Source of the DNA: Peptoniphilus harei | GTDB lineage: Bacteria > Bacillota > Clostridia > Tissierellales > Peptoniphilaceae | Assembly: GCF_900454685.1 (NCBI RefSeq) | Contig: NZ_UATM01000032.1 | Location: forward strand, 1,302,001-1,366,000 | Length of the DNA: 64,000 bases | Direction of reading: 5' to 3' | Shown: positions 11,732 through 53,362 of the stretch, in pieces | Position numbering within the stretch: the stretch's first letter is position 1 | Layout of the letters: each line of letters starts with the position of its first letter | The notes under the pieces: generated by a model | What the model was told of the DNA's origin: nothing | The model's input: only the letters and a program-made list of their open reading frames with translations | Databases searched by the model: none | Position numbers and translations under genes: made by a program

Positions 11732-12077
11732 TTTTGTGATTTACCTCATCTATAAGTTTATCTAATTCCATAGCTCGTTCAATAGAGTCATCCTTAATAA
11801 AAATGAGTTCTGGCATCGCCCTTAGTTTAACCCTATTAGCCAATTCTTTTTTTATAAATCCCTTAGCTGAATTAAGTCCTTCAACTGCTTCATCCCTATC
11901 ATAGTCATCTCCTAAGACAGAAACATAAACTTTTGCGAAGGATAAATCATTTGTAACTTCAACATGAGAAATACTAGTAATAGAAGGTATCCTTGGATCT
12001 TTTAACTCATTTTGAACTATATTAGATATTGTTCGTCTTACTTCTTCTGATATTCTGTTAATTCTTTTATTGTTCAT
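11724..12077 (-). CDS. rbfA: 30S ribosome-binding factor A
   Basis: 117 aa, the normal size. KH-like protein that binds immature 30S subunits near the 5' end of 16S rRNA during maturation and cold adaptation. Family hallmarks: RINRISEEVRRTISNIVQNELKDPR at the N-terminus (first 20 or so residues diagnostic), SFAKVYVSVLG and the C-terminal RAMPELIFIKDDS. Shares one base with the infB stop (TAATG), so translation is likely coupled. Confidence 0.95.
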   Translation of the reverse strand: MNNKRINRISEEVRRTISNIVQNELKDPRIPSITSISHVEVTNDLSFAKVYVSVLGDDYDRDEAVEGLNSAKGFIKKELANRVKLRAMPELIFIKDDSIERAMELDKLIDEVNHKND

Positions 12078-14338
12078 TATGATCTTTCAACTTCCTTCAT
12101 GATGTAAGATTCAAGAAGATCGCCTTCTTTAATATCATTAAAACCATCAATAACAAGTCCGCCTTCAAAACCTGTTGCAAGCTCTCTAGCATCATCTTTA
12201 AATCTCTTTAGAGAAGCAATGTCTCCTTCGTGAATAACAACGTCATTTCTTAGCACTTTAACCTTAGAGTTTCTTAGGATTTTACCGTTTAGGACATAAA
12301 CCCCAGCAACCATTTGGTTGTTTGGAAGTTTAAATGTTTGTCTTATTTCACATCTTCCAAGGATTTCTTCTACAATATCTGGATCTAGCATACCCTTAGC
12401 TGCTTGTTCTATATCGTTAATAATTTCATAGATAACTCTGTATGTCCTAATTTCAACATCTTCAGTTTTTGCAAGTTCTATAGCATTAATATTAGGTCTA
12501 ACATTAAATCCAATAACAATTGCATTAGATGCAGAAGCTAGAGTAACGTCAGATTCATTGATTCCACCAACGCCTGAGTGAATTACAGAAATCTTAACTT
12601 CTTCAGTGGAAAGTTTTAGTAAAGATTGGTTAAGCGCTTCAACAGAACCTTTTACATCACCTTTTACAACAACATTGAGTTCTTTTACATCTTCTTCAGA
12701 AATTTTTTCGAATAGGTTGTCAAGACTAATCTTAGTTGTTTGACTCAATCTCTTTTCTCTAGAAATTTCTGTATTCTTATCGGCAATTGCTTTTGCAGTC
12801 TTATCATCATTAACTGCATAAATTGTGTCTCCAGCATTAGGAACATCGTTAAGTCCTAAAATTACAACTGGCATAGAAGGTCCAGCTTTTTTAACTTTTT
12901 TGCCTTTATCATCTTCCATAGCTCTTATTCTTCCTGAGCAAGTACCAGATACAATAGCATCTCCAAATCTTAAAGTACCGTTCTTAATAAGAATAGTTGC
13001 CATAGGTCCCTTAGCCTTGTCAAGATTGGCTTCGATTATAGTACCAATAGCACGTCTATTAGGATTTGCTTTTAACTCTTTCATTTCAGCTACTAATAGA
13101 ATCATTTCTAGAAGTTCATCAATGCCTTCGCCAGATTTTGATGAAACTCCAACAACAATTGTGTCACCGCCCCATTCTTCAGGAACAAGATTTTCGTTCA
13201 TTAATTCTTGTTTAACTCTTTCAGGGTTGCCTTCTGGTTTATCAATTTTTGTAATTGCTACAATTATTGGAACATCAGCGGACCTTGCGTGAGAAATTGC
13301 TTCAATTGTTTGAGGCATTACACCATCGTCTGCGGCTACAACAAGTATTGCTATGTCTGTAGTTTGAGCTCCCCTAAGTCTCATGGAAGTAAAAGCTTCG
13401 TGACCTGGTGTATCGAGGAAAGTTATTTTCTTTCCAGATAAATTAACAGTGTAAGCCCCTATATGTTGAGTAATACCGCCAGCTTCAGATTGAGTAACAT
13501 GAGTTTTCTTAATAGAATCTAATAGAGAAGTTTTTCCGTGGTCAACGTGACCCATTACTGTTACAACAGGTGGTCTTGGTTTAAGATCTCTTTCCCTATC
13601 TTCTCTTAGAAGCCCATATTCTTCTTCAACCGATTGGTCAAGATTTGGAGCTTCAATTTCAATTTCAATTCCAAGTTCATCAGCTAGTAATATACAAGTA
13701 TCTTCATCAATACTTTGGTTTTGATTTGCCATAACTCCAAGTCCAATTAGTTTTGTAATAACTGTTGATACAGACACTCCCAATTGGTTAGCAAAATCCT
13801 TTACTGTTATAGGTGCTATAACTATTATAGAATCATCTCCCTTATCTTCCTCTTCAACCTTATGTTTTGATCTAACTTTTTTCTTTGGTTTTTTCTTAGT
13901 CAAATCTCTCTTAAAGGAGTGGTTTTTATCATTATCATTTTCTTTGTTTTTAGACTTATTCTTTTTGTTATTTTTCTTTTTTTGATTAGATGAATGTTCG
14001 CTCTTATCATCATTTTTTTTATTTTCTTTATTAAAAGTCTTGTTTTTATTATCTTTTTTAAATTCTTTATTATCTGAATTGTTATTGTTTTGTTTTTCCT
14101 TATTAGGATGAGTTTTTTTCTTGTTGTCTCCCTGCTTATCATTGTTTTTCTTTTCTACAGGAGAGTCATTCTTTGAAGAATTTTTGTTATATAAATTTCT
14201 TACTCTATCTTCTTCAGCGCTATCTAATGTTGACATATGATTTTTTACAGATATTTCAAGTTCATTTAACTTTGCAATTAATTCCTTACTTGTAATACCA
14301 ATTTCCTTTGCCAACGCGTGTACTCTAATTTTTGACAA
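12077..14338 (-). CDS. infB: Translation initiation factor IF-2
   Basis: 753 aa GTPase that places fMet-tRNA in the 30S P site and promotes subunit joining. N-terminal IF2_N helix, then a long low-complexity Lys/Asn-rich linker (about 50-165), a second IF2_N motif, the G domain with GHVDHGKTS (about 264) and DTPGHEAF and TKID, then EF-Tu-like domain II and the C1/C2 domains. I place the start at TTG 14338 (protein MSKIRVHALAKEIG): AGGAGG lies eight bases upstream. The in-frame GTG at 14347 overlaps that Shine-Dalgarno. The Lys/Asn linker is unusually biased but typical of AT-rich genomes. Confidence 0.96.
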   Translation of the reverse strand: MSKIRVHALAKEIGITSKELIAKLNELEISVKNHMSTLDSAEEDRVRNLYNKNSSKNDSPVEKKNNDKQGDNKKKTHPNKEKQNNNNSDNKEFKKDNKNKTFNKENKKNDDKSEHSSNQKKKNNKKNKSKNKENDNDKNHSFKRDLTKKKPKKKVRSKHKVEEEDKGDDSIIVIAPITVKDFANQLGVSVSTVITKLIGLGVMANQNQSIDEDTCILLADELGIEIEIEAPNLDQSVEEEYGLLREDRERDLKPRPPVVTVMGHVDHGKTSLLDSIKKTHVTQSEAGGITQHIGAYTVNLSGKKITFLDTPGHEAFTSMRLRGAQTTDIAILVVAADDGVMPQTIEAISHARSADVPIIVAITKIDKPEGNPERVKQELMNENLVPEEWGGDTIVVGVSSKSGEGIDELLEMILLVAEMKELKANPNRRAIGTIIEANLDKAKGPMATILIKNGTLRFGDAIVSGTCSGRIRAMEDDKGKKVKKAGPSMPVVILGLNDVPNAGDTIYAVNDDKTAKAIADKNTEISREKRLSQTTKISLDNLFEKISEEDVKELNVVVKGDVKGSVEALNQSLLKLSTEEVKISVIHSGVGGINESDVTLASASNAIVIGFNVRPNINAIELAKTEDVEIRTYRVIYEIINDIEQAAKGMLDPDIVEEILGRCEIRQTFKLPNNQMVAGVYVLNGKILRNSKVKVLRNDVVIHEGDIASLKRFKDDARELATGFEGGLVIDGFNDIKEGDLLESYIMKEVERS

Positions 14339-14362
14339 ATTGAACACCTCCTAAAAAGAAGC

Positions 14363-14626
14363 TTAATCTACAGATTCAATTAGTTTCTCATAAACTTCCT
14401 CACTAATCTCTGTCGTGAATGCCCTATTTAAAGCTTTTGACTTTATCGCTTTTTCCAAACAACTTTTGTCATTGCATAAGTAAGCTCCTCTTCCATTTGC
14501 CTTTCCAGTTTTATCTATAAAGATTTCATCGTCTTTGTTCTTTACAACTCTAATTAAATCTTTCTTTTCTTTTTGTTCTCTACAACCTATGCAAGTACGC
14601 ATAGGTACCTTCCTAATTTTAGTCAT
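14363..14626 (-). CDS. rnpM: RnpM/YlxR family RNA-binding protein
   Basis: 87 aa. The family (YlxR, DUF448) binds RNA and in B. subtilis modulates RNase P, hence RnpM. The signature PMRTCIGCREQKEKKDLIRVV (residues 8 onward, conserved CIGC) and GKANGRGAYLC are clear. It sits between nusA and infB as usual. The L7Ae-like gene ylxQ/rplGB that commonly follows it is missing here; only 16 bp separate rnpM from the IF-2 frame. GGAGTAAGTA precedes the ATG. Confidence 0.93.
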   Translation of the reverse strand: MTKIRKVPMRTCIGCREQKEKKDLIRVVKNKDDEIFIDKTGKANGRGAYLCNDKSCLEKAIKSKALNRAFTTEISEEVYEKLIESVD

Positions 14627-14651: not shown

Positions 14652-15932
14652 TTAAATGTTAACATCTTCATCTATAGAATTTGTTTCTATGCTTTCTTCA
14701 TCCTCAATATTCATATCAGAGTTTTCATCAATATGAGAATCTGATTCTTCAGGATGTATTTCAGTTGTTTCTAAATTTTCTCCAGATTTTTCAAAGTCTT
14801 CAGATATTTCCTCAACTTCTTCATCAGAAAATTCTTTTTTAGCATTTTCAAATTCTTCTTTAAGTTCTTCTTCTGTTATATTTCTCTCTTCAAGGTATTC
14901 TTCAAACTGAAGATTTGATTTTATATCTATCTTCCATCCGGTTAATTTTGCAGCAAGCCTAACATTTTGACCTTCCTTACCAATAGCAAGAGAAAGTTGG
15001 TAGTCAGGAACTATTGCAAGTGCAGATTTTTCTGCTTCATTAACAAATACTTTTTCAACCTTTGAAGGGCTTAGGGAATTTGCAATAAACTTGTCTATTT
15101 CCTTCTCGAATATAACAATATCTATTTTTTCATTATCAATTTCATCAACTATTGCATTTACTCTTTGACCCTTGTATCCAACACAAGCTCCTAGAGGATC
15201 TACTTCTGGGTCTCTTGAAAATACAGCGATTTTTGTCCTTGAACCAGCTTCTCTAGAAATAGAGTATATTTCAACTATTCCTTCACTTACTTCAGGGATT
15301 TCTAATTCAAATAATCTCTTTACTAAATCTGGATGAGATCTTGAAAGGACTATTTGAGGTCCTTTTGTTGATTTTTCTACTGATAGAATCAACATCTTAT
15401 ATCTATCCCCGTGATTATAGGACTCACCATTAATTTGTTCACTATAAGGAAGAATTGCCTCAGTAGTTCCTAAATCAACATAAACATTGTTATAAGCTTT
15501 TCTTTGGACAAGACCAGTTATAATTTCTTTTTCTCTTTCAACGTATTCATCGAAAACAATATCTCTTTCAGCATCCTTTATTCTTTGGATTACCACTTGT
15601 TTAGCTGTTTGTGCAGCAATTCTACCAAAATTTTTAGGATGAATTTCTAGATTATATATGTCTCCAATTTCATAACTTGGGTCTAATTTCTTTACCTCTT
15701 CTAAAGATATTTGTAGTTGAGGGTCTTCCACAACATCTACAATTTCTTTAGAGGAGTATAATTTGATTTCTCCAGTTTCTCTATCCATATTTACGATTAC
15801 ATTTTCTGATGTACCATAATTTTTTCTATAACTAGAGACTAAGGCCGATTCCAAAGCTTCAAAGACAATTTCTTTAGAAATCCCTTTTTCTTTTTCGATT
15901 TCATTTAAAGCGTCAATAAACTCTTGATTCAT
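14652..15932 (-). CDS. nusA: Transcription termination/antitermination factor NusA
   Basis: 426 aa. Binds RNA polymerase and nascent RNA, stimulating pausing and intrinsic termination. N-terminal polymerase-binding domain (about 1-125), S1 (about 135-200), KH1 (RDPEVDPLGACVGYKGQRV around 235-253) and KH2 (SLAIGKEGQNVRLAAKLTG). The last about 75 residues form an acidic Glu/Asp/Ser-rich tail absent from B. subtilis-length NusA (about 370 aa). AGGAGGAATAA precedes the ATG. It lies 11 bp after rimP. Confidence 0.96.
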   Translation of the reverse strand: MNQEFIDALNEIEKEKGISKEIVFEALESALVSSYRKNYGTSENVIVNMDRETGEIKLYSSKEIVDVVEDPQLQISLEEVKKLDPSYEIGDIYNLEIHPKNFGRIAAQTAKQVVIQRIKDAERDIVFDEYVEREKEIITGLVQRKAYNNVYVDLGTTEAILPYSEQINGESYNHGDRYKMLILSVEKSTKGPQIVLSRSHPDLVKRLFELEIPEVSEGIVEIYSISREAGSRTKIAVFSRDPEVDPLGACVGYKGQRVNAIVDEIDNEKIDIVIFEKEIDKFIANSLSPSKVEKVFVNEAEKSALAIVPDYQLSLAIGKEGQNVRLAAKLTGWKIDIKSNLQFEEYLEERNITEEELKEEFENAKKEFSDEEVEEISEDFEKSGENLETTEIHPEESDSHIDENSDMNIEDEESIETNSIDEDVNI

Positions 15933-15943
15933 TTATTCCTCCA

Positions 15944-16405
15944 TTAAAATTTTATAGTTTGTTTCATTGATGAAATTGATTTAATTGGTATTGCCAATTC
16001 TTTCTCATCTTTCATAAAATAAATATTCTCGTCATCATATTTATCCAAAACAAAACTAAATTCTTTCTGTCCGTCTATTGGAGCATAAAGTTTTACATCA
16101 ACTTCATTGCCAACATTTCTTCTATAGTCATCTTTTGTTTTAAGAGGCCTATCAAGTCCAGGAGAAGAAATCTCAAGATAGTATGGATTTTTCAAAGCTT
16201 CTAAGTTATCAAGTTTCTTTTCTAAACTTCTACTCATTTCGGTGCAGTCATCTAAATCAATGCCTTCTTTTTTATAAATAAAAATTGACAAAAGATCATG
16301 CTTTGATCCATTTTGAAATTCTATGTCTACAATTTCGTAGCCAAGTTCTTCTGCTACCTCTTCAGCTAGTGGGTAGATTTCTCTTTTTAATTCTTTTTTA
16401 TTCAC
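15944..16405 (-). CDS. rimP: Ribosome maturation factor RimP
   Basis: 153 aa, standard length. Needed for 30S maturation. N-terminal alpha/beta domain with VDIEFQNGSKHDLLSIFI and the conserved LDDCTEMSRSLEKKLD, ending with the LEISSPGLDRPLK motif, then an SH3-like C-terminal domain. The start is GTG 16405 with GAGGTGTTAA before it. First gene of the rimP-nusA-rnpM-infB-rbfA-nrnA-truB-ribF operon; its leader holds a strong terminator hairpin. Confidence 0.95.
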   Translation of the reverse strand: MNKKELKREIYPLAEEVAEELGYEIVDIEFQNGSKHDLLSIFIYKKEGIDLDDCTEMSRSLEKKLDNLEALKNPYYLEISSPGLDRPLKTKDDYRRNVGNEVDVKLYAPIDGQKEFSFVLDKYDDENIYFMKDEKELAIPIKSISSMKQTIKF

Positions 16406-16421
16406 TTAACACCTCACTACT

Positions 16422-16452
16422 AAAAAACAAAGAGTGGGCTTCCCCACTCTTT
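16422..16452 (-). terminator. Strong intrinsic terminator in the rimP-nusA leader / after polC
   Basis: Minus strand AAAGAGTGGG-GAAG-CCCACTCTTT, a perfect 10-bp stem with tetraloop (16443-16452 with 16429-16438), followed by GTTTTTT. It ends 17 bp before the rimP GTG. It terminates polC transcripts. Because the only readable promoter for rimP lies upstream of it, it also acts as a leader attenuator. Confidence 0.88.
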
Positions 16453-16476
16453 ACTCTAAATATCTTACTTAATTAA

Positions 16477-16504
16477 ATTATAACACAAATTGCTATAAAT
16501 ACAA
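16477..16504 (-). promoter_or_regulatory. Putative promoter of the rimP-nusA-infB operon
   Basis: Minus strand TTGTAT (16499-16504), 16-base spacer, perfect TATAAT (16477-16482), right after the polC stop codon. Transcription would start near 16470, upstream of the terminator hairpin. Confidence 0.65.
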
Positions 16505-16509
16505 GTTTT

Positions 16510-19500
16510 TCAAAAATTGAATAATGAAATTTGATTGGTTTCATCAAGGTCTTTTAATATTCCATTTTTTTGTAAAATTGTAATAACAGAATTCCCAGCC
16601 TTTGTTCTTTTGGAAAAATCTTCTATTGATAAATAATTAGATTTTTTTGATTCTTCTTCTATTTTGTTAGCACAGTTTTCGCCTACACCAGGTATTGCCC
16701 TAAGTGGCATTCTAATTTTTCCATCTTCAATAGTAAATTTAGATGCTTTTGACTTATAGATATCAGGACTTAAAAATTCAAATCCTCTCGCATACATTTC
16801 AAGGGCTACTTCAGATACTCTTATCTCTCCCTTGTCCTTAGCTGTTGGTTTTTCAATATCTCTTAAAATTTTAATTCTATTTTTGAGAAAGCCTGGACCT
16901 TCAATAATATTCTCTCCATTAAAATCATTTAGTTTAATAGTAAAGAAAGTTGCATAAAAGGCTAAAGGATGATTGAGCTTATAATAAGCAATTCTGAAAG
17001 AAAGCATTACATAAGCAACTGCGTGAGCCTTAGGGAACATGTACTTGATTTTCTTACAAGAATCAATATACCACTCAGGCAAATCTAAGTTTTTCATTAT
17101 ATTTTCTTGTTCTTCAGTTAGGCCTTTTCCCTTTCTTACTTTTTCCATAGTATCAAAGGCCATTTTATTTTCAGCACCTGCATTTATTAGATATACCATG
17201 ATGTCTTCCCTTGTAGCGATAACATCTTTTAATTCAGCTCTACCAGAATCAACTAACTCTTGGGCATTAGAAATCCAAACGTCAGTACCATGGGATAGGC
17301 CAGATATTCTCACAAGATCTGCAAAGTTTTTTGGTTTTGTTTCTAGTAACATAGATATAACAAAAGAAGTTCCAAATTCTGGTATTCCTAGTGTCCCAGT
17401 CTTGCAAGAGAAAATATCTTCATCCATGTGAAAGGCTTCCGCACTATTAAATATAGAAAGTGTATTTTGATCATCAAGCCTAATTGTACTAGAGTCTATT
17501 CCAGTGAAGTCCTCTAACATTTTAATAATTGTTGGACCATCGTGACCTAGTATATCCAATTTCAAGATTTTTCCATGAATAAAGTTATAATCAAAATGAG
17601 TTGTTATAACTCCTGAACTTGGATCGTCTGCTGGATATTGAATTGGTGTGAAGTCGAAAATTGAATTTGTTTTAGGAACAATCATTACACCGCCAGGGTG
17701 CTGTCCACTAGTTCTTTTACCATCAGTGATCGCCCTTGAAAGTCTGTCAATTTCAATTGGTGAGATACGCTGATTTTCAAAATATTTTTTCACATAACCA
17801 TAAGCAGTTTTTTCAGCAATTTTTCCTATAGTTCCTGCCCTAAATACATACCCTTCTCCAAATAACTCTTCAGTGTATTTATGGGCTCTAGGTTGATACT
17901 CACCAGCAAAGTTTAAATCTATATCTGGTTCCTTATCTCCATAAAAACCTAAGAAAACTTCAAACGGAATATTGTGCCCATCTTTTATGAGTTGGGTTCC
18001 ACATTTAGGGCATACTTTATCTGGCATGTCAACCCCAGATCCATAAGTTAAGTCTTCAGTAAATTCAGAATATTTGCAGTTAGGACAAATGTAGTGTGGT
18101 GGAAGGGGGTTTACTTCTGTTATATCTGCCATTGTTGCAACAAAAGAAGATCCAACAGACCCTCTAGAACCTACTAGGAATCCATCATCATTTGATTTTT
18201 TCACAAGTTTTTGTGCAATAATATATAGAACTGAATAACCATTTGAAATAATAGATTTTAGTTCCTTCTCCAACCTGTCTTCAACAATCTTAGGAAGAAC
18301 TTCTCCATAAATGTCATGGGCCTTTTTGTAAGTCATATCCCTTAAACTTTCATCAGAACCTTCAATAACTGGTGGATAAGTTCCATCTGGAATTGGTTTT
18401 ATATCCTTAATAAAATCTTTTAATTCATTTGTATTAGTTACAACAACTTCATAGGCTTTGTCTTGACCTAAGTAGGAAAATTCATCTAGCATTTCTTCTG
18501 TTGTCTTAAAATAAAACTTTTGGTTTCTACTAGATCTTGGATCAGGTCTACCAGGTTTGCCGTTTAGGACAATTTTTCTAAGGAGGTCCTCGGACTCCTC
18601 TATATAATATGTGTCTGAATCAGCAACAACAGGAATATTTAGTTCTTCTCCAAGCTCTAAGATTTTTTTGTTTATATCTCTTATATCTTCTAGTGTATAT
18701 TTTCCATCTTCAATTGACATAATGTTGTCACTTGCTGGCTGGATTTCTAGAAAATCATAGTAAGATGCAATTTTAACTAATTCTTCATGAGGACACATCC
18801 TATATATAGCATCAAACAATTCTGAATTGGCATTACCAGATCCAACAAGAATTCCTTCTCGATATTTATCTAATAAACTTCTAGGAACTTTTGCAACAAA
18901 ATTAAAGTATTTCATATGCGAATCAGAAATTAACATATATAAGTTTTTCAAACCAACTTCATCTTTAACTAACAATAATAAAGAAGATTCGAATAAACGT
19001 TTAGAATCTGTGTTTTTTATTTGTTGATTTAAAATTTCAAAATTGAAATCTTCTTCCTCTCTTTTAATTTTGTCAATTAACTTTATAAAAACCTCTGCTG
19101 TAGCTTCAGCATCATTAACTGCTCTATGCGCTCCCACAAGAGACACACCAAGATTTTTACAAAGAGTTCCAAGATTGAATCTCTTCATATGTGTCATTGT
19201 TGCTCTTGCCATTACAAGTGTATCAAGTATTGGATGGTTAAATTCTAAGCCATTGTTAGCATACTCTCTCCTAATAAATGAAATATCAAATTTTGCATTG
19301 TGGGCAACTAGTACGGCATCTTTAGCAAATTCATAAAATTTAGGAATAACCTCTTCTATTGTAGGTTCATTTTCAACTAAGGAGTTACTAATCCCTGTTA
19401 AATTAACAACAACTTGAGGAATTTCTTTTTCAGGGTTAATAAGTTGTGAAAATCTATCTGTTATAATACCGTCTTTTATTTTTACTGCACCAATTTCTGT

Positions 19501-20772
19501 AATTTTATCATTTCTAGATGAAAGACCAGTAGTTTCTATATCAAAGACTACGTAAGTATCGTAAGTTTTTCCATCTATATAGTTAGTTACAATTTTTTCC
19601 TTATCATCAACAAAATTTATGTCTGTTCCATAAAGAATTTTAAGTCCAGTTTTTTCTCCGGCCTCCATTGCTTCTGGGAAACCTTGAACGTCATTAGTAT
19701 CAGTAATGCCAATTGCATCATGTCCCCAAAGTTTAGCTCTATTTGCAAAGTCAGTAAAAGATGTAACACCAGACATCTGAGACATTTTGGAATGAATTCT
19801 TAACTCTGTTCTCTTTTCATCAGAATAATCCATCCTAAGGACCTTATCTCTTTTTTCAATGTACCTAATCATAATAGTTTCACATTTTGAGAAATTATCA
19901 TAGGACACATTTCCAGTAATAACAACATGGTCACCTACACCGAAGCTTTCTAAGAACTCTTCTGCCTTGTCAGGTTTTAAGAATATTTTTGCAAGAGTTG
20001 ATGATGTGTAGTCTGTAATAGAAAGGGAAATCAAAAAGTTACCGTTTTTAAGTTCTCTACTTTCTAAATTAAATATATCGACTTCAACACTTACCTTTTG
20101 TGAATTTACATTAACATCAACTAGCTTTTCTATTATTCCTATATCTTTTTTTCCATAGGAGTTAGATTTTTTAATTTTCTTTTCTTTAGACTTATTTTCT
20201 ATTTTTGTCTTTACTTCAATTTCATGTTTAGTAGAAATAACTTCTTCAGCTTCTTCTATTTGAGAAATAAAGTTTTCAATATTATCCTCTACAAGATCTT
20301 TTTTATCAAAATCAAATTTTATACTGAAGTTACCAAAAACTTTTAATTCTTTTTCCAGATATGATGCAAACCCATTTTGACTTAAGCTATAAAATGCTTC
20401 TTCACTAGGTAGTTTTATATTTATTAAACCAATTTTATCATTTTTATTTATTAGAACATCCTTAATCCATATTTGTGATGAAGGATTGTACTTCAAAATT
20501 TCAGCATAAATTAAATCATCTTCACTTTTATAAAGAGAAGATGATTTAAAGTCAATATAAGTCTTGTATTCTTCTAAGCTTGTAGAAAAAATTTTAGAAA
20601 TTTCATTCTTAAAATTTATTTCTAAATCATTTTTTGAATTAATTACAAAATAAACTTCTCCTTTATTTTTGTTTCTTCTAATTGACTCTATATAAATGTC
20701 ATCTGGAACATCATTATAAGAAGAATTTAATTTTTGTAAAATATCTTTTAATAAAATCAAATTATCACCCAA
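16510..20772 (-). CDS. polC: DNA polymerase III alpha subunit, PolC type
   Basis: 1420 aa replicative polymerase of low-GC Gram-positives, with built-in proofreading. Parts: N-terminal domain; OB fold (about 225-305); split PHP domain (HSKMSQMSGVTS near 330); DnaQ-like 3'-5' exonuclease inserted in PHP (about 405-575, VVFDIETTGLSS and HNAKFDISFI and HRAVNDAEAT); then palm/fingers with a zinc knuckle (CPNCKYSE...CPKCGTQL), PDIDLNFAGEYQ carrying the catalytic Asp pair, and a helix-hairpin-helix C-terminus. It begins at TTG 20772, overlapping the ispG end by 8 bp; the ribosome binding site is weak. Last gene of the rpsB-polC run. Confidence 0.97.
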   Translation of the reverse strand: MGDNLILLKDILQKLNSSYNDVPDDIYIESIRRNKNKGEVYFVINSKNDLEINFKNEISKIFSTSLEEYKTYIDFKSSSLYKSEDDLIYAEILKYNPSSQIWIKDVLINKNDKIGLINIKLPSEEAFYSLSQNGFASYLEKELKVFGNFSIKFDFDKKDLVEDNIENFISQIEEAEEVISTKHEIEVKTKIENKSKEKKIKKSNSYGKKDIGIIEKLVDVNVNSQKVSVEVDIFNLESRELKNGNFLISLSITDYTSSTLAKIFLKPDKAEEFLESFGVGDHVVITGNVSYDNFSKCETIMIRYIEKRDKVLRMDYSDEKRTELRIHSKMSQMSGVTSFTDFANRAKLWGHDAIGITDTNDVQGFPEAMEAGEKTGLKILYGTDINFVDDKEKIVTNYIDGKTYDTYVVFDIETTGLSSRNDKITEIGAVKIKDGIITDRFSQLINPEKEIPQVVVNLTGISNSLVENEPTIEEVIPKFYEFAKDAVLVAHNAKFDISFIRREYANNGLEFNHPILDTLVMARATMTHMKRFNLGTLCKNLGVSLVGAHRAVNDAEATAEVFIKLIDKIKREEEDFNFEILNQQIKNTDSKRLFESSLLLLVKDEVGLKNLYMLISDSHMKYFNFVAKVPRSLLDKYREGILVGSGNANSELFDAIYRMCPHEELVKIASYYDFLEIQPASDNIMSIEDGKYTLEDIRDINKKILELGEELNIPVVADSDTYYIEESEDLLRKIVLNGKPGRPDPRSSRNQKFYFKTTEEMLDEFSYLGQDKAYEVVVTNTNELKDFIKDIKPIPDGTYPPVIEGSDESLRDMTYKKAHDIYGEVLPKIVEDRLEKELKSIISNGYSVLYIIAQKLVKKSNDDGFLVGSRGSVGSSFVATMADITEVNPLPPHYICPNCKYSEFTEDLTYGSGVDMPDKVCPKCGTQLIKDGHNIPFEVFLGFYGDKEPDIDLNFAGEYQPRAHKYTEELFGEGYVFRAGTIGKIAEKTAYGYVKKYFENQRISPIEIDRLSRAITDGKRTSGQHPGGVMIVPKTNSIFDFTPIQYPADDPSSGVITTHFDYNFIHGKILKLDILGHDGPTIIKMLEDFTGIDSSTIRLDDQNTLSIFNSAEAFHMDEDIFSCKTGTLGIPEFGTSFVISMLLETKPKNFADLVRISGLSHGTDVWISNAQELVDSGRAELKDVIATREDIMVYLINAGAENKMAFDTMEKVRKGKGLTEEQENIMKNLDLPEWYIDSCKKIKYMFPKAHAVAYVMLSFRIAYYKLNHPLAFYATFFTIKLNDFNGENIIEGPGFLKNRIKILRDIEKPTAKDKGEIRVSEVALEMYARGFEFLSPDIYKSKASKFTIEDGKIRMPLRAIPGVGENCANKIEEESKKSNYLSIEDFSKRTKAGNSVITILQKNGILKDLDETNQISLFNF

Positions 20773-23621: not shown

Positions 23622-24347
23622 TTATAATCCTCCGTATCTCCTATTTCTTTTTTGAAAATCATAAATGGCCTTATAGAATTCCTCTTCATGAAAGTCTGGC
23701 CACAATATATTAGAAAAATAAAACTCGCTATAGGCTAGTTGATATAATAAAAAATTAGAAACTCTAAGCTCACCACTTGGTCTTATAAGTAGGTCCAGAT
23801 CTTCTTGATCTCTTGAATATAAATAATCCTTAAAAGATTCTGTATCAATATCTTCAAGAGATAGCTTACCAGCAATAACATCTTCACAAATCATTTTGCT
23901 AGCTCTAACTATTTCACTTTGTCCCCCATAATTTAGACCAATATTTAATATCATTTTATCATTTGATCTAGTTTCCTGCAATGCAGTCTCGATTAGTCTA
24001 ACTATCTTATCAGGAAAGGCTTTATAATCTCCTAAGACATTTATTCTAATATTATTTTTTTTAATTTTTTCAAGTTGATTTTTAATATAGTAGGCAAGTA
24101 AATCCATTAACTTAGAAATCTCTTCATCAGGTCTCTTCCAGTTTTCAGTAGAGAAGGCATAAAGAGTTAAAGATTTAATATTGATTTTATAGGCTGCTTC
24201 TACAATTTCGATTACCCTTTGTGTTCCTTCTCTATGTCCAAAAGTTCTTGGCATTTTTCTTTTCTTTGCCCATCTTCCATTTCCATCCATTATTATGCCT
24301 ACGTGTTTGGGAATATTTTCTAAATCTAATTTATCGTAATAATTCAT
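23622..24347 (-). CDS. uppS: Undecaprenyl diphosphate synthase (isoprenyl transferase) UppS
   Basis: 241 aa cis-prenyltransferase that makes the C55 carrier lipid for peptidoglycan. Conserved motifs: HVGIIMDGNGRWAKKR (catalytic Asp in MDGNGR, about residue 20), GHREGTQRV, YAFSTENWKRP, and the C-terminal DLLIRPSGELRVSNFLLYQ (conserved RxSGExR) and FSNILWPDF. AAGGAGTTTT precedes the ATG. A terminator-like hairpin stands just upstream. Confidence 0.96.
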   Translation of the reverse strand: MNYYDKLDLENIPKHVGIIMDGNGRWAKKRKMPRTFGHREGTQRVIEIVEAAYKINIKSLTLYAFSTENWKRPDEEISKLMDLLAYYIKNQLEKIKKNNIRINVLGDYKAFPDKIVRLIETALQETRSNDKMILNIGLNYGGQSEIVRASKMICEDVIAGKLSLEDIDTESFKDYLYSRDQEDLDLLIRPSGELRVSNFLLYQLAYSEFYFSNILWPDFHEEEFYKAIYDFQKRNRRYGGL

Positions 24348-24357
24348 AAAACTCCTT

Positions 24358-24387
24358 AAAAAAAGAGCCTTAGAATAATCTAAGGCT
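24358..24387 (-). terminator. Terminator hairpin between frr and uppS
   Basis: Minus strand AGCCTTAGA-TTAT-TCTAAGGCT, a perfect 9-bp stem (24379-24387 with 24366-24374), followed by CTTTTTTT. It lies immediately after the frr stop and in front of the uppS Shine-Dalgarno. No promoter can be placed between hairpin and uppS, so read-through is probably partial. Confidence 0.82.
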
Positions 24388-24392
24388 AAAAA

Positions 24393-24950
24393 TTAAATTT
24401 CCATAAGTTCTTTTTCTTTTTCTTCTGCTACACCATCGATGTCTTTAATATATTTATCAGTTAACTTTTGAATATCTTCTTCATAAGTTTTTCTATCATC
24501 TTCAGATATTTCTTTAGCTTTTTCAGCTTTTTTAATATCTTCCATAGCATCTCTTCTAATGTTTCTAACAGAAACTTTTGCTTCTTCCGCATACTTTCCA
24601 ACTAACTTAGTAAGATCTTTTCTTCTTTCTTCAGTTAGTTGAGGTATAACAAGTCTAATAACTTTTCCGTCATTTGAAGGAGTTATTCCCAAATCAGACT
24701 TTTGTATTGCTTTTTCAATTTCAGGAATTAATGTAGCATCCCAAGGTTGAATAGCAAGCAGTCTTGCTTCTGGTGCAGAAAGACTAGCAACTTGATTAAG
24801 TGGAGATTGTTGTCCATAATAATCAACGTAAATCTTGTCAAGCAAACTTGTATTAGCACGTCCTGCTCTTATAGACTGAAGTGATTCAGTAAGTGAGTCA
24901 ACAGATTTTGACATTCTTGACTCAGTATTTTTTTTAAGATCAGATATCAT
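24393..24950 (-). CDS. frr: Ribosome recycling factor
   Basis: 185 aa, standard length. With EF-G it splits post-termination ribosomes. Family landmarks: [17 protein letters not shown] near residue 25, [40 protein letters not shown] and the C-terminal coiled helix. AGGAGGATACT precedes the ATG. It lies 9 bp after pyrH. Confidence 0.97.
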
Positions 24951-29148: not shown

Positions 29149-29979
29149 CTACATCCTTAACTGTCCAACTACGACTCTATCCAGTTTACTCAAATCTTTA
29201 ATAACTTCTACATCAAATTTATCTTCCATGAGGGCACATATATCTTTAGCCTCATCATGTCCAATTTCAAAAACCAAGTATCCTCTATCATTTAAATATT
29301 CTGGTGCTTTTTCAATTATTTTTCTATAAAAATAAAGTCCATCTTCTCCACCATCAAGGGCAAGTCTAGGTTCATGTTTTCTTACTTCAACCTGTAGCTT
29401 CTCTATTTCATCAGATTTTATATAAGGAGGATTTGAGTAAATTATATCAAACTTATTTTTAATATTTGAAAACAAGTCACTCTTTAGTACTGTTATTGTT
29501 GATCCTATTTTTTCTTTATTGATTTTAGTATTTTCAATTGCCTTTTGACTTATATCAACAGCAGTAACATCAACTTTTGTTTCAAGGTCAACGCTAATGC
29601 TGACAATCCCTGTGCCACAACCAATTTCTAACATATTATTAATCTTGTTATTTTTTATTATTTTTAATAGGGTTTCTACGGATATTTCTGTATCTTGTCT
29701 AGGAATCAAAACATCTTTAAGAACTTTGAAGCTTCTTCCATAAAAATCTTCTTCACCTAAAATATATTGTATCGGCATACCATTTTTTCTTTTGTCTAAA
29801 ATCTCGAAATATCTTTCTTCAACTGTTGAATCTAATAGCTCACTATCATGAGCCACTAGATATGATAAATCTTTATTTAAAAGAAAGCTTAGGATTCGTC
29901 TTGTTTCATATATTGGATCAGTATATTCTAAATCTTTTAAATATTTTCTACCTTCTATTAAGGCCTCTTTAATTTCCAT
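29149..29979 (-). CDS. prmC: Peptide chain release factor N5-glutamine methyltransferase PrmC (HemK)
   Basis: 276 aa SAM-dependent enzyme that methylates the GGQ glutamine of release factors. Motifs: [38 protein letters not shown] (SAM site, about 115-129) and the catalytic SNPPYI (about 180). A Shine-Dalgarno is not visible before the ATG; the codon follows the U-run of the rpmE-prmC hairpin by about 13 bases. Standard prmC-prfA neighbourhood with rpmE upstream. Confidence 0.94.
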
Positions 29980-30363: not shown

Positions 30364-31800
30364 TTATCTAACAAAATATTTTTTTAAAAATTCCTTATTA
30401 TTTTTAGTCTTTGAAATGGAATCTAAAAATCTTTCTGTTACATCTTCTATATTTTCTTCTGACAATTTATTTCTAAATTCATAACTGAAGTCCAACTCTC
30501 CCTTGCTAAGCAAAAGTTCTTCTTTCCTTGTATCTGACTTTAATATATCTATAGCTGGGAAAATCCTTTTTTCTGATAGACTTCGATTTAGATGGAGTTC
30601 CATATTTCCTGTACCTTTAAACTCTTCGAAGATGACATCATCCATCCTTGAACCAGTGTCTACAAGAGCAGTGGCAAGTATGGTTAAGCTGCCGCCCTCT
30701 TCAATGTTTCTTGCTGCCCCGAAAAATCTCTTTGGCTTGTGAAGTGATAGAGGATCCAGACCACCTGATAGAGTTTTACCACTAGCTGGTGTTGTTAAAT
30801 TGTAAGCTCTTGAAAGTCTTGTAAGAGAATCAAGTAAAATTACTACGTCTTCTTTGTTCTCAACAAGTCTTTTTGCTCTATCAATAACCATCTCAGCAAC
30901 CCTAGTGTGATTCTTAGGATTTTCATCAAAGGTAGAATATACTACTTCTCCTTTTACAGACCTTTTCATGTCTGTAACTTCTTCAGGTCTTTCGTCTACT
31001 AACAGGACTATTAAATGAAGATCTGGATAATTACTATTTATAGATTTAGAAATCTTTTTAAGTAGAGTAGTCTTTCCTGATTTTGGTTGTGAAACAATAA
31101 GGCCTCTTTGTCCAAAACCAACAGGAGCCAAGAGGTCAATAATCCTCATAGCCCTGTCTTCAGTTTCTAAATTAATCTTTTCCTTTGGATAAATTGGAGT
31201 TAGGTTATCAAAAAAAGGTCTATTAATTATTTTTGAAGGATGAAAATTGTTGACAGACTTGATGTATAAAAGAGCATTGAAATTTTCTCCGTCTTTTGGT
31301 GGAGATTTTATTCCAAGGATTTCATCGCCATTCCTAAGTCTAAACTTTCTTATCTGCGAAGGCGAAACATATATATCTTCTTCACTTGGAAGATAATTAA
31401 TTGTTCTTAAAAAACCATATCCATCCTGGTGAAGTTCAAGTATTCCTCTTACATAATTTTTATTGTCAAGATTTTTTAAAATTTCTGCAGCGTTATCAGA
31501 TAAATCTAGCTTATCAATTTTTTGTGATTCTTTTTTTAACTTTATTTCTTTTATAAGCTCATCTTTTTTTAAGGAATATGATTTTTCTATTTTACATTCT
31601 TTCGCCAGTTCCCTAAGTTCTGAAACCTTGAGTTTATCTAAGTCTTTATCAGATAGTGAAGAAGCAGGAGTTTTACCTGTCTCTATAAACTCTTTTAAGT
31701 CTTCTACATTATAATTTTCAGGATTTTCAAGACCAAGGGATAAGGCTATTTTTCTCAAGTCATCTATTGATTTATTATTTAATTCAATTTTGTTAGTCAT
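30364..31800 (-). CDS. rho: Transcription termination factor Rho
   Basis: 478 aa hexameric RNA translocase. The N-terminal Rho_N helical domain is doubled by a charged insert (about 1-100). An RNA-binding cold-shock-like domain follows (about 110-180, [14 protein letters not shown]). The RecA-type motor has [12 protein letters not shown] Walker A (about 242), [20 protein letters not shown] and the Q/R loops. No clear Shine-Dalgarno precedes the ATG, 8 bp after glpX, so coupling is likely. Last gene of the FHA-to-rho run. Confidence 0.95.
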
Positions 31801-51741: not shown

Positions 51742-51749
51742 TCAACACA

Positions 51750-52010
51750 TAGACTTTGAAGAGGAGAGTACATTGTAAAAGTTTTTACAGAGAGATTTCA
51801 TTTGGTGAAAGAAATCAAAATGGATACTTTGGAACATGGCCTTGGAGTCTTCGCACCGAGACAAGTGTTTAGGCTGCGACAGGTACGCCTGTTATAGCGT
51901 TCGGAGTATGTTGGTACTCTATGAGGTTATTTTCGCGATAAAATAATAAAAAAAGGTGGTAACACGAAGCTCAAGCTTTCGTCCTTTATGGGACGGGAGC
52001 TTTTTTTATT
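51750..52010 (+). ncRNA. T-box riboswitch, probable methionine specifier (AUG)
   Basis: Leader RNA that binds uncharged tRNA and then favours an antiterminator. Stem I closes with GACT/AGTC (51752-51755 with 51846-51849). The AGTA (51767-51770) and GAA (51832-51834) of the loop E motif flank the specifier loop, in which AUG (51836-51838) sits in the usual place. The distal AGAGAG bulge (51789-51794) and GGTGA apical loop (51804-51808) match conserved Stem I features. The T-box AAGGTGGTAACACG lies at 51954-51967. The terminator competes: AGCTTTCGTCC/GGACGGGAGCT (51975-51985 with 51992-52002) then a T run. Methionine fits the downstream metY. The rest of the gene-free stretch (51685-52081) holds only the promoter and the metY ribosome site. 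Confidence 0.92.
51975..52009 (+). terminator. Regulated terminator of the T-box leader
   Basis: An 11-bp stem (51975-51985 with 51992-52002, two G-U pairs) is followed by seven T. Its 5' arm follows directly on the T-box sequence (51954-51967), whose pairing with Stem-side bases forms the alternative antiterminator. Confidence 0.9.
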
Positions 52011-52081: not shown

Positions 52082-53362
52082 ATGACAAAGAAAAATTTAG
52101 GAACCCTATGTGTGCAAGCAGGATATGAACCAAAGAATGGTGAACCAAGAGTTGTCCCAATCGTTCAATCTACAACTTTTAAATACGATTCATCTCAGCA
52201 AATGGCAAATCTTTTCGACTTGAAAGAAGCCGGTTACTTTTACACTAGACTTGCCAATCCAACAAATGATGCAGTAGCAAATAAAATCACTGCTCTTGAA
52301 GGAGGCGTTGCTGGTATATTGACATCATCAGGACAAGCTGCAAACTTCTATGCCCTACTTAACATTTTAAAGGCAGGTGACCACATTGTAGCTTCATCAG
52401 CAATCTACGGTGGAACTTACAACCTAATTGCCAATACAATGAAAAATCTTGGCATAGAAGCAACTTTTGTTGAACCAGATGTTAGCATAGAAGAATTAAA
52501 TAAAGCCTTTAAAGAAAACACTAAAGTAGTCTTTGGAGAAACTCTTTCCAACCCATCACTAAGTGTTTTGGATATTGAAACTTTTGCAAAAGCTGCTCAC
52601 GACCATGGAGTTCCACTTATTGTAGACAACACCTTCCCTACACCAATTTTCTTGAGACCAATTGAATGGGGTGCAGACATTGTCACTCACTCAACAACAA
52701 AATACATGAACGGCTTTGCCAACTCTGTTGGTGGAGTTGTTGTTGACTCAGGAAACTTTGATTGGTCAAAATATAAAGACAAGTATCCTGGACTAACTAC
52801 TCCAGACGAATCTTATCACGGAGTTGTCTTTACAGAGACCTTTGGCAAGGGAGCTTATATAACTAAGATGACTACAACATTAATGAGAGACCTTGGAAGT
52901 ATTCCTTCCCCACAAAACTCATTTTATCTTAGCATTGGACTAGAAACACTTCACTTGAGAATGCCAAGACACTACGAAAATGCCCTTGCCCTTGCAAAAT
53001 ATTTAAAAGACCATGACAAGATTTCTTGGGTATCCTTCTCTGGACTTGAAGATGATTCACAACACGAGCTTGCACAAAAATATTTACCAGATGGATCATG
53101 TGGCGTAATTGCCTTTGGAATAAAGGGCGGAAGAGAAGCAGCGACAAAATTCATGGATGGATTAAAACTTGCAGCAGTTGTAACTCACGTAGCCGATGCA
53201 AGAACTTGTGTCCTCCACCCTGCTTCCACAACACATAGACAAATGAATGACGACGAACTTGCTCACGCTGGCATTAGCCCTGATTTAATTAGAATGTCCG
53301 TTGGCATTGAAGATGCAGAAGACATAATCAAAGACGTAGAACAAGCTCTTGAAAATTTATAA
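52082..53362 (+). CDS. metY: O-acetylhomoserine aminocarboxypropyltransferase (sulfhydrylase)
   Basis: 426 aa PLP enzyme making homocysteine from O-acetylhomoserine and sulfide (direct sulfhydrylation), one step from methionine. Typical segments: GTLCVQAGYEPKNGEPRVVPIVQS, YTRLANPTNDAV, VDNTFPTP and the PLP lysine in THSTTKYMNG (Lys207), ending with LIRMSVGIEDAEDI. A long insertion-type C-terminal half (about 425 aa in all) distinguishes MetY from about 390 aa MetB/MetC. AGGAGGATAAT precedes the ATG. Regulated by the upstream T-box, so expression rises when tRNA-Met is uncharged. Confidence 0.93.
   Translation: MTKKNLGTLCVQAGYEPKNGEPRVVPIVQSTTFKYDSSQQMANLFDLKEAGYFYTRLANPTNDAVANKITALEGGVAGILTSSGQAANFYALLNILKAGDHIVASSAIYGGTYNLIANTMKNLGIEATFVEPDVSIEELNKAFKENTKVVFGETLSNPSLSVLDIETFAKAAHDHGVPLIVDNTFPTPIFLRPIEWGADIVTHSTTKYMNGFANSVGGVVVDSGNFDWSKYKDKYPGLTTPDESYHGVVFTETFGKGAYITKMTTTLMRDLGSIPSPQNSFYLSIGLETLHLRMPRHYENALALAKYLKDHDKISWVSFSGLEDDSQHELAQKYLPDGSCGVIAFGIKGGREAATKFMDGLKLAAVVTHVADARTCVLHPASTTHRQMNDDELAHAGISPDLIRMSVGIEDAEDIIKDVEQALENL

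Follow-up and report, generated by a model that had tools for sequence, protein, structure and literature searches.

A terminator hairpin with a conserved stem, located before rimP-nusA-infB, has been described as the rimP-leader (Naville and Gautheret 2010, PMC2965389). According to the accessible text of that paper, its authors saw no antiterminator in the leader's common form, and NusA was assigned, without a test, as the best candidate regulator. In Bacillus subtilis, NusA limits its own synthesis by stimulating termination in the 5' leader of its gene, as stated in the accessible part of a 2025 review (PMC12288461, citing Mondal 2016); the first-pass annotation of the locus studied here had named this autoregulation too, in agreement with the review. 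For S. agalactiae gbs0413-gbs0418, RNA-seq data in the available text of PMC4448216 include a short RNA that ends 31 nt past the start, with a predicted intrinsic terminator. For Escherichia coli, the available accounts give two terminators upstream of rimP and control by NusA of its own operon. Control of rimP-nusA by something other than NusA exists or may exist in other organisms; a pneumococcal study, in its accessible text, raises the speculation that CiaR controls the rimP-nusA operon (PMC6560143).

Here we describe a leader of this kind in a stretch of 64,000 nucleotides of Peptoniphilus harei DNA (the window). The kind itself is already known; what we add is a set of genomes lacking rimP and the depth to which the stem is conserved.

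Anatomy of the rimP leader

On the minus strand of the window, the order is polC, promoter, hairpin, rimP, nusA, ylxR, and infB, with the following features.

16510-20772, minus strand: polC (Pfam), the upstream same-strand gene, with its stop at 16510 just before the promoter
16477-16504, minus strand: predicted sigma-A-type promoter (TTGTAT at 16504-16499, 16-base spacer, TATAAT at 16482-16477)
16429-16452, minus strand: predicted terminator hairpin (rimP-leader), a perfect 10-bp stem of AAAGAGTGGG and CCCACTCTTT closed by the loop GAAG
16422-16428, minus strand: U-tract GTTTTTT, directly 3' of the stem (direct reading)
16410-16417, minus strand: probable ribosome-binding site GTGAGGTG (by eye)
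15944-16405, minus strand: rimP, with a GTG start at 16405 (Pfam PF02576, E 2.7e-22; PF17384, E 5.4e-13)
14652-15932, minus strand: nusA (Pfam NusA_N, E 1.4e-46; KH_5; S1)
14363-14626, minus strand: ylxR (Pfam PF04296, E 5.7e-34)
12077-14347, minus strand: infB, encoding IF-2 (Pfam)

Direct reading bore out the first-pass annotation in its coordinates for the promoter hexamers and their spacing and in its description of a perfect 10-bp hairpin with GTTTTTT that ends 17 bases before rimP. It was also right that a promoter does not fit downstream of the hairpin, because the 16 bases left there (16421-16406) are occupied by the probable ribosome-binding site. The -10 element is extended (TG at 16485-16484, minus strand), and the promoter position predicts a transcription start at about 16470, which would leave only about 18 nt of RNA 5' of the stem. 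Intrinsic terminators that depend on NusA are marked by a weak hairpin, a broken U-tract, or both; here the stem is strong, and a single G separates UUU from the six U's that follow. The fold of the leader RNA has an energy of -19 kcal/mol (shuffles, -9.7 +/- 2.4; z, -3.8) and shows no strong alternative.

A strict terminator scan (a minimum of 9 Watson-Crick pairs with 4 or more G-C, and 6 or more T in 8) returned two sites in the 64 kb on both strands, the rimP-leader hairpin being the longer, while 60 first-order random sequences gave 0.017 sites per 64 kb. A general terminator scan of the window did not list this hairpin, probably because the stem extends into the T run once G-U pairs are allowed. 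The stem GAGTGGGNNNNCCCACTC has exactly one copy in the P. harei genome. Allowing up to 2 mismatches adds one place (L123), a near copy with 2 mismatches and no T run.

By the available text of PMC2965389, the window hairpin resembles the rimP-leader in sequence form: it sits in the 5' untranslated region of rimP-nusA-infB, has a G-rich 5' arm with GGG and a C-rich 3' arm with CCC, and lies within the published 4 to 130 nt of the gene start (23 nt from stem to GTG here), followed by a T stretch. It differs from the motif GGGc...gCCC given there in that, within GAGTGGG...CCCACTC, GGG is followed by G and not by c, although CCC is preceded by G as in the motif. Since the inner c...g is printed in lower case, we take it as preferred rather than defining, and membership rests on the other features. 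The resemblance to the B. subtilis nusA leader is one of description, in that leader termination limits transcription into nusA (PMC12288461, accessible part), and NusA dependence in the window would hold by analogy. The S. agalactiae leader, likewise compared by description from the available text of PMC4448216, has an early terminator before rimP-nusA, with an RNA of 31 nt measured there versus about 50 nt predicted here. The Rfam family RF01770 (rimP) shares the gene context by name; no match in the window reached its gathering score, and 0/21 genomes (the P. harei genome and relatives) were over the cut-off, against 1/14 controls. Weak subthreshold matches to RF01770 occur in all 21 genomes, and none of those listed for the P. 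harei genome lies at rimP. Weak matches of the hairpin to other, unrelated Rfam families (E up to 10) were discarded.

What the sequence itself gives is the set of leader parts, the order and conservation of these parts, some compensated pairs, and the association with nusA. From them we infer promoter activity, termination, and NusA dependence in this organism. We put the probability at about 0.78 that the hairpin is a rimP-leader attenuator of rimP-nusA-ylxR-infB that works by feedback through NusA-stimulated termination. RNA polymerase would initiate near 16470, and some 18 bases on, the RNA would fold into the hairpin, followed by the U-tract. Part of the polymerases would then terminate, releasing an RNA of about 50 bases, and the others would continue into rimP-nusA-ylxR-infB. 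If NusA stimulates the stop, abundant NusA would lower expression of its own operon and scarce NusA would raise it. An antiterminator would be unneeded in such a scheme, because the level of free NusA would set readthrough.

Conservation of the promoter-hairpin order

By tblastn, rimP was found in 14/14 genomes of the genus (P. harei included) and in 122/130 genomes of the family. With one genome dropped (G077, contig edge), the family set consists of 121 upstream regions from 39 genera, and nusA lies downstream of the rimP hairpin in 121/121. A search for a hairpin plus T's that was blind to the motif recovered a hairpin in 115/121; in the other six (G022, G026, G027, G030, G031, and G034), the motif encloses a long loop of 9 to 10. 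Scored against the 14 letters of GAGTGGG/CCCACTC, the stem reaches at least 12 in 95/121 family genomes, compared with 0/121 and a maximum of 11 for a reversed-letter control; a cut-off of 10/14 was abandoned because the control itself scores 10 to 11. The six-letter arms GAGTGG/CCACTC are exact in 94 of the 121, and 27 are variants. A promoter-like element is found 8 to 60 nt before the hairpin core in 117/120 family genomes (27.2 expected from shuffles) and between the hairpin and rimP in 1/120; one genome was excluded because its upstream region was too short.

Outside the family, the RimP_N profile matched 144/149 phylum genomes and 8/8 order relatives. Seventy-eight of these loci were read: the best-scoring 30, 40 that add further families, and the 8 order relatives. 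The stem scores at least 12 in 77/78 and has 14/14 letters in 65/78, and the reversed-letter control reaches 12 in 3/78 and 13 in none; nusA is downstream in 78/78. A promoter-like element precedes the hairpin in 67/77 (7.6 expected) and lies between hairpin and rimP in 8/77, again with one genome excluded for too little upstream DNA. The promoter-hairpin order before rimP, for which the first-pass annotation had proposed a search in related genomes, recurs in most of those read. Because the hexamers are no commoner than in shuffles (47 promoter-like sites in 12 kb versus 49.6 expected) and taken alone are weak evidence, the promoter call rests on position in these relatives.

Whole-genome searches with GAGTGGGN{2,12}CCCACTC found the motif in 118/149 phylum genomes, nearly always as a single copy; an exact copy is absent in 31/149. 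In a motif-first scan, named species genomes were searched with AAGAGTGGGNNNNCCCACTCTTTNNT, which gave a sample of at least 119 stretches. Among the 119 matches listed, 111 have the motif at most 450 nt upstream of rimP or, in L259 only, of nusA directly; in three of the eight failures (L264, L334, and L358), the motif is within 170 bases of an end of the stored stretch. Titles beyond Firmicutes among the matches listed are Nitrospira, Nitrospirota, Thermodesulfovibrio, Nitrospinota, Synergistaceae, Fusobacterium, Leptotrichiaceae, and Omnitrophota. Since many of the motif-first records are metagenome bins, their titles may err. Two records, L297 (titled Thermodesulfovibrionales) and L298 (titled Nitrospinota), have nearly identical rimP leaders and flanks and may represent a mislabelled or mixed bin.

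Upstream genes, genomes lacking rimP, and alternative readings

In the genus of the host, about 60 to 90 nt separate the end of polC from the stem core. A mere polC terminator, with rimP transcribed via readthrough, would therefore look similar to the attenuator here. In the window, polC is indeed the same-strand upstream gene, with its stop at 16510, and a polC match lies upstream in 62/121 family genomes. However, such a match is absent in 59/121, two of which (G023 and G114) have little upstream DNA, and the hairpin is still there. By a longest-frame test, the upstream gene is divergent in 26/121 family genomes, with doubtful calls for G107 (polC on the same strand) and for G040 and G041 (short frames). 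Among four divergent frames searched with Pfam, three are real genes (CstA, AAA_5, and an ABC transporter) and one is without a match, and four further divergent frames look CstA-like by eye; the hairpin is retained behind these divergent genes. Because the upstream gene is sometimes divergent, the hairpin is not just the terminator of polC. The promoter-like element that precedes the hairpin in relatives also speaks against a plain polC terminator, as does the comparison of its stem core, kept across the phylum sample, with a control terminator that drifts within the genus.

24366-24387 (24387-24366), minus strand: control terminator between a frr-like gene (24393-24950, by eye) and the undecaprenyl diphosphate synthase gene (23622-24347)

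Only one terminator served as the control, and its frr gene was named by eye. The frr-uppS stem is alike in 11 close relatives; the genus's two most distant species (L221/L222, corresponding to G005/G008) carry unrelated stems there, and their rimP stem core is intact. We therefore regard a plain polC terminator as unlikely. In the host's genus, polC transcripts would meet the hairpin, so the attenuator may also end polC transcripts here. It is very improbable that the hairpin instead caps the 5' end and protects the operon mRNA while causing little termination. The hairpin does lie at the very 5' end of the operon RNA, and in the large genus g3 the stem core begins 11 to 16 nt past the -10 element in 28/31 genomes, with several short tails such as CTCTTTTAAT, so that termination may be weak in this genus. 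Against such a cap stand the tail, which is T-rich (though interrupted) in family and phylum, and the early termination seen in S. agalactiae (PMC4448216, available text).

A further reading is that the attenuator responds to RimP or to a different product (IF-2 or the ribosome assembly state) and not to NusA. RimP feedback was named as a hypothesis by Naville and Gautheret (PMC2965389, accessible text), and conservation of the stem sequence exceeds what pairing requires, which would be expected if a specific factor, whatever it is, reads it. Genomes without rimP allow the two candidate feedback products, RimP and NusA, to be told apart. Those without RimP_N are G146, G234, G238, G279, and G280 in the phylum set and, in addition, G060, G062, G378, G473, G484, G533, and G534; G058, G059, and G061 are negative by both tblastn and RimP_N, and G097, G111, and G112 have no RimP match by tblastn only. 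NusA_N was found in 4/5 and 8/13 of these RimP-negative genomes, giving 12 nusA loci, and the genomes in which NusA_N was not found (G234, G097, G111, G112, G533, and G534) were left out. Two loci were dropped because it is not clear that they lack rimP: L376 (contig end, with text resembling the RimP C terminus) and L378, in which a RimP-like frame starts between the hairpin and nusA, where the sequence is incomplete.

Of the 10 rimP-less genomes in which the start of nusA could be read, 8 carry the hairpin immediately upstream of nusA: L374, L375, and L377 have the full 14-letter stem, L379, L380, and L382 have GAGTGG/CCACTC, and L381 and L383 have GAGAGG/CCTCTC. Five of the eight belong to one genus of the host's family, which makes fewer than eight independent cases. 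The RimP match is absent in these five genomes at 99% completeness, and G063, the only sibling with RimP that was examined, has the hairpin before rimP. By eye, a promoter-like element is seen ahead of most of the eight hairpins, L375 being an exception. The hairpin is absent before the rimP-less nusA of L372 and L373, which come from two species of the same genus. In both, nusA is preceded by a gene that looks MgtC-like by eye, and the leader seems lost.

Judged from gene content, retention in 8/10 rimP-less genomes favours NusA over RimP as the feedback product; infB and other genes are still candidates. The published regulation in B. subtilis is also by NusA (PMC12288461, accessible part). 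Sensing of RimP or of another product is thus, in our view, improbable, and feedback by NusA, the loop proposed in the first-pass annotation and supported in part by these comparisons, is the reading we prefer. Retention of the hairpin without rimP was not found described in the accessible portions of the open-licence literature surveyed.

Stem sequence, tail, and other features of the window

The stem core GAGYGG/CCRCUC is nearly invariant among the family and order/phylum genomes read. At core pair 4, 130 rows (family and nusA-only, L378 included) have T-A in 107, T-G in 11, C-G in 10, and A-T in 2, and a few swaps are found at core pairs 1 and 6 in the family and nusA-only rows. These counts lean towards pairing, since the script prefers paired sites by design, and its 208/208 is no independent proof of pairing; in G109 it picked a wrong site, the source of single swaps at pairs 2 and 3. 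Compensated variants are GAGCGG/CCGCTC and GAGAGG/CCTCTC. Some compensated pairs thus suggest that core pairing is kept through change, as for a feature of the RNA and not of the DNA. Near-invariance of most of the core is not explained by pairing alone. The loop varies in length and sequence among relatives. The E. coli K-12 leader, read by eye, has GGGC...GCCC plus a U run, with a second hairpin upstream, and the outer GAGU/ACUC pairs are therefore not universal.

One possible explanation, which we offer tentatively and hold to be less probable than not, is that GAGYGG/CCRCUC is a dedicated sequence-specific NusA operator, whose stem bases NusA would read either by itself or when bound to RNA polymerase, rather than acting by stability alone. 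Such an operator would have been kept with nusA across several phyla, mostly persisting before nusA after rimP loss. Together, the widely kept stem and its few compensated variants form a ready panel with which reading of the sequence by NusA could be distinguished from an effect of stability alone.

Across family and phylum, the tail is rich in T but interrupted; in the order/phylum genomes, T falls to 20% at tail position 4 and 28% at position 5. Two candidate elements were rejected. The four-mer AGAA, a candidate NusA KH-type site in the leader, occurs in 30 of 103 segments versus 16.8 expected, but it was selected after the fact as the top scorer among all four-mers, and the genomes are related. 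A NusG-type TTNTTT after the core is present in 82/121 family genomes but in 14/78 order/phylum genomes and is thus not a general part of the leader.

Elsewhere in the window, a small L31-like frame (by eye) lies on the minus strand at about 30225-30022, between rho (30364-31800) and prmC (29149-29979); a promoter-like TATAAT precedes it, and a terminator (30016-29998, minus strand) lies just before prmC. A T-box leader (RF00230, 113.6 bits) is found at 51747-51989 on the plus strand, before a gene for a Cys/Met metabolism PLP enzyme (52082-53362).
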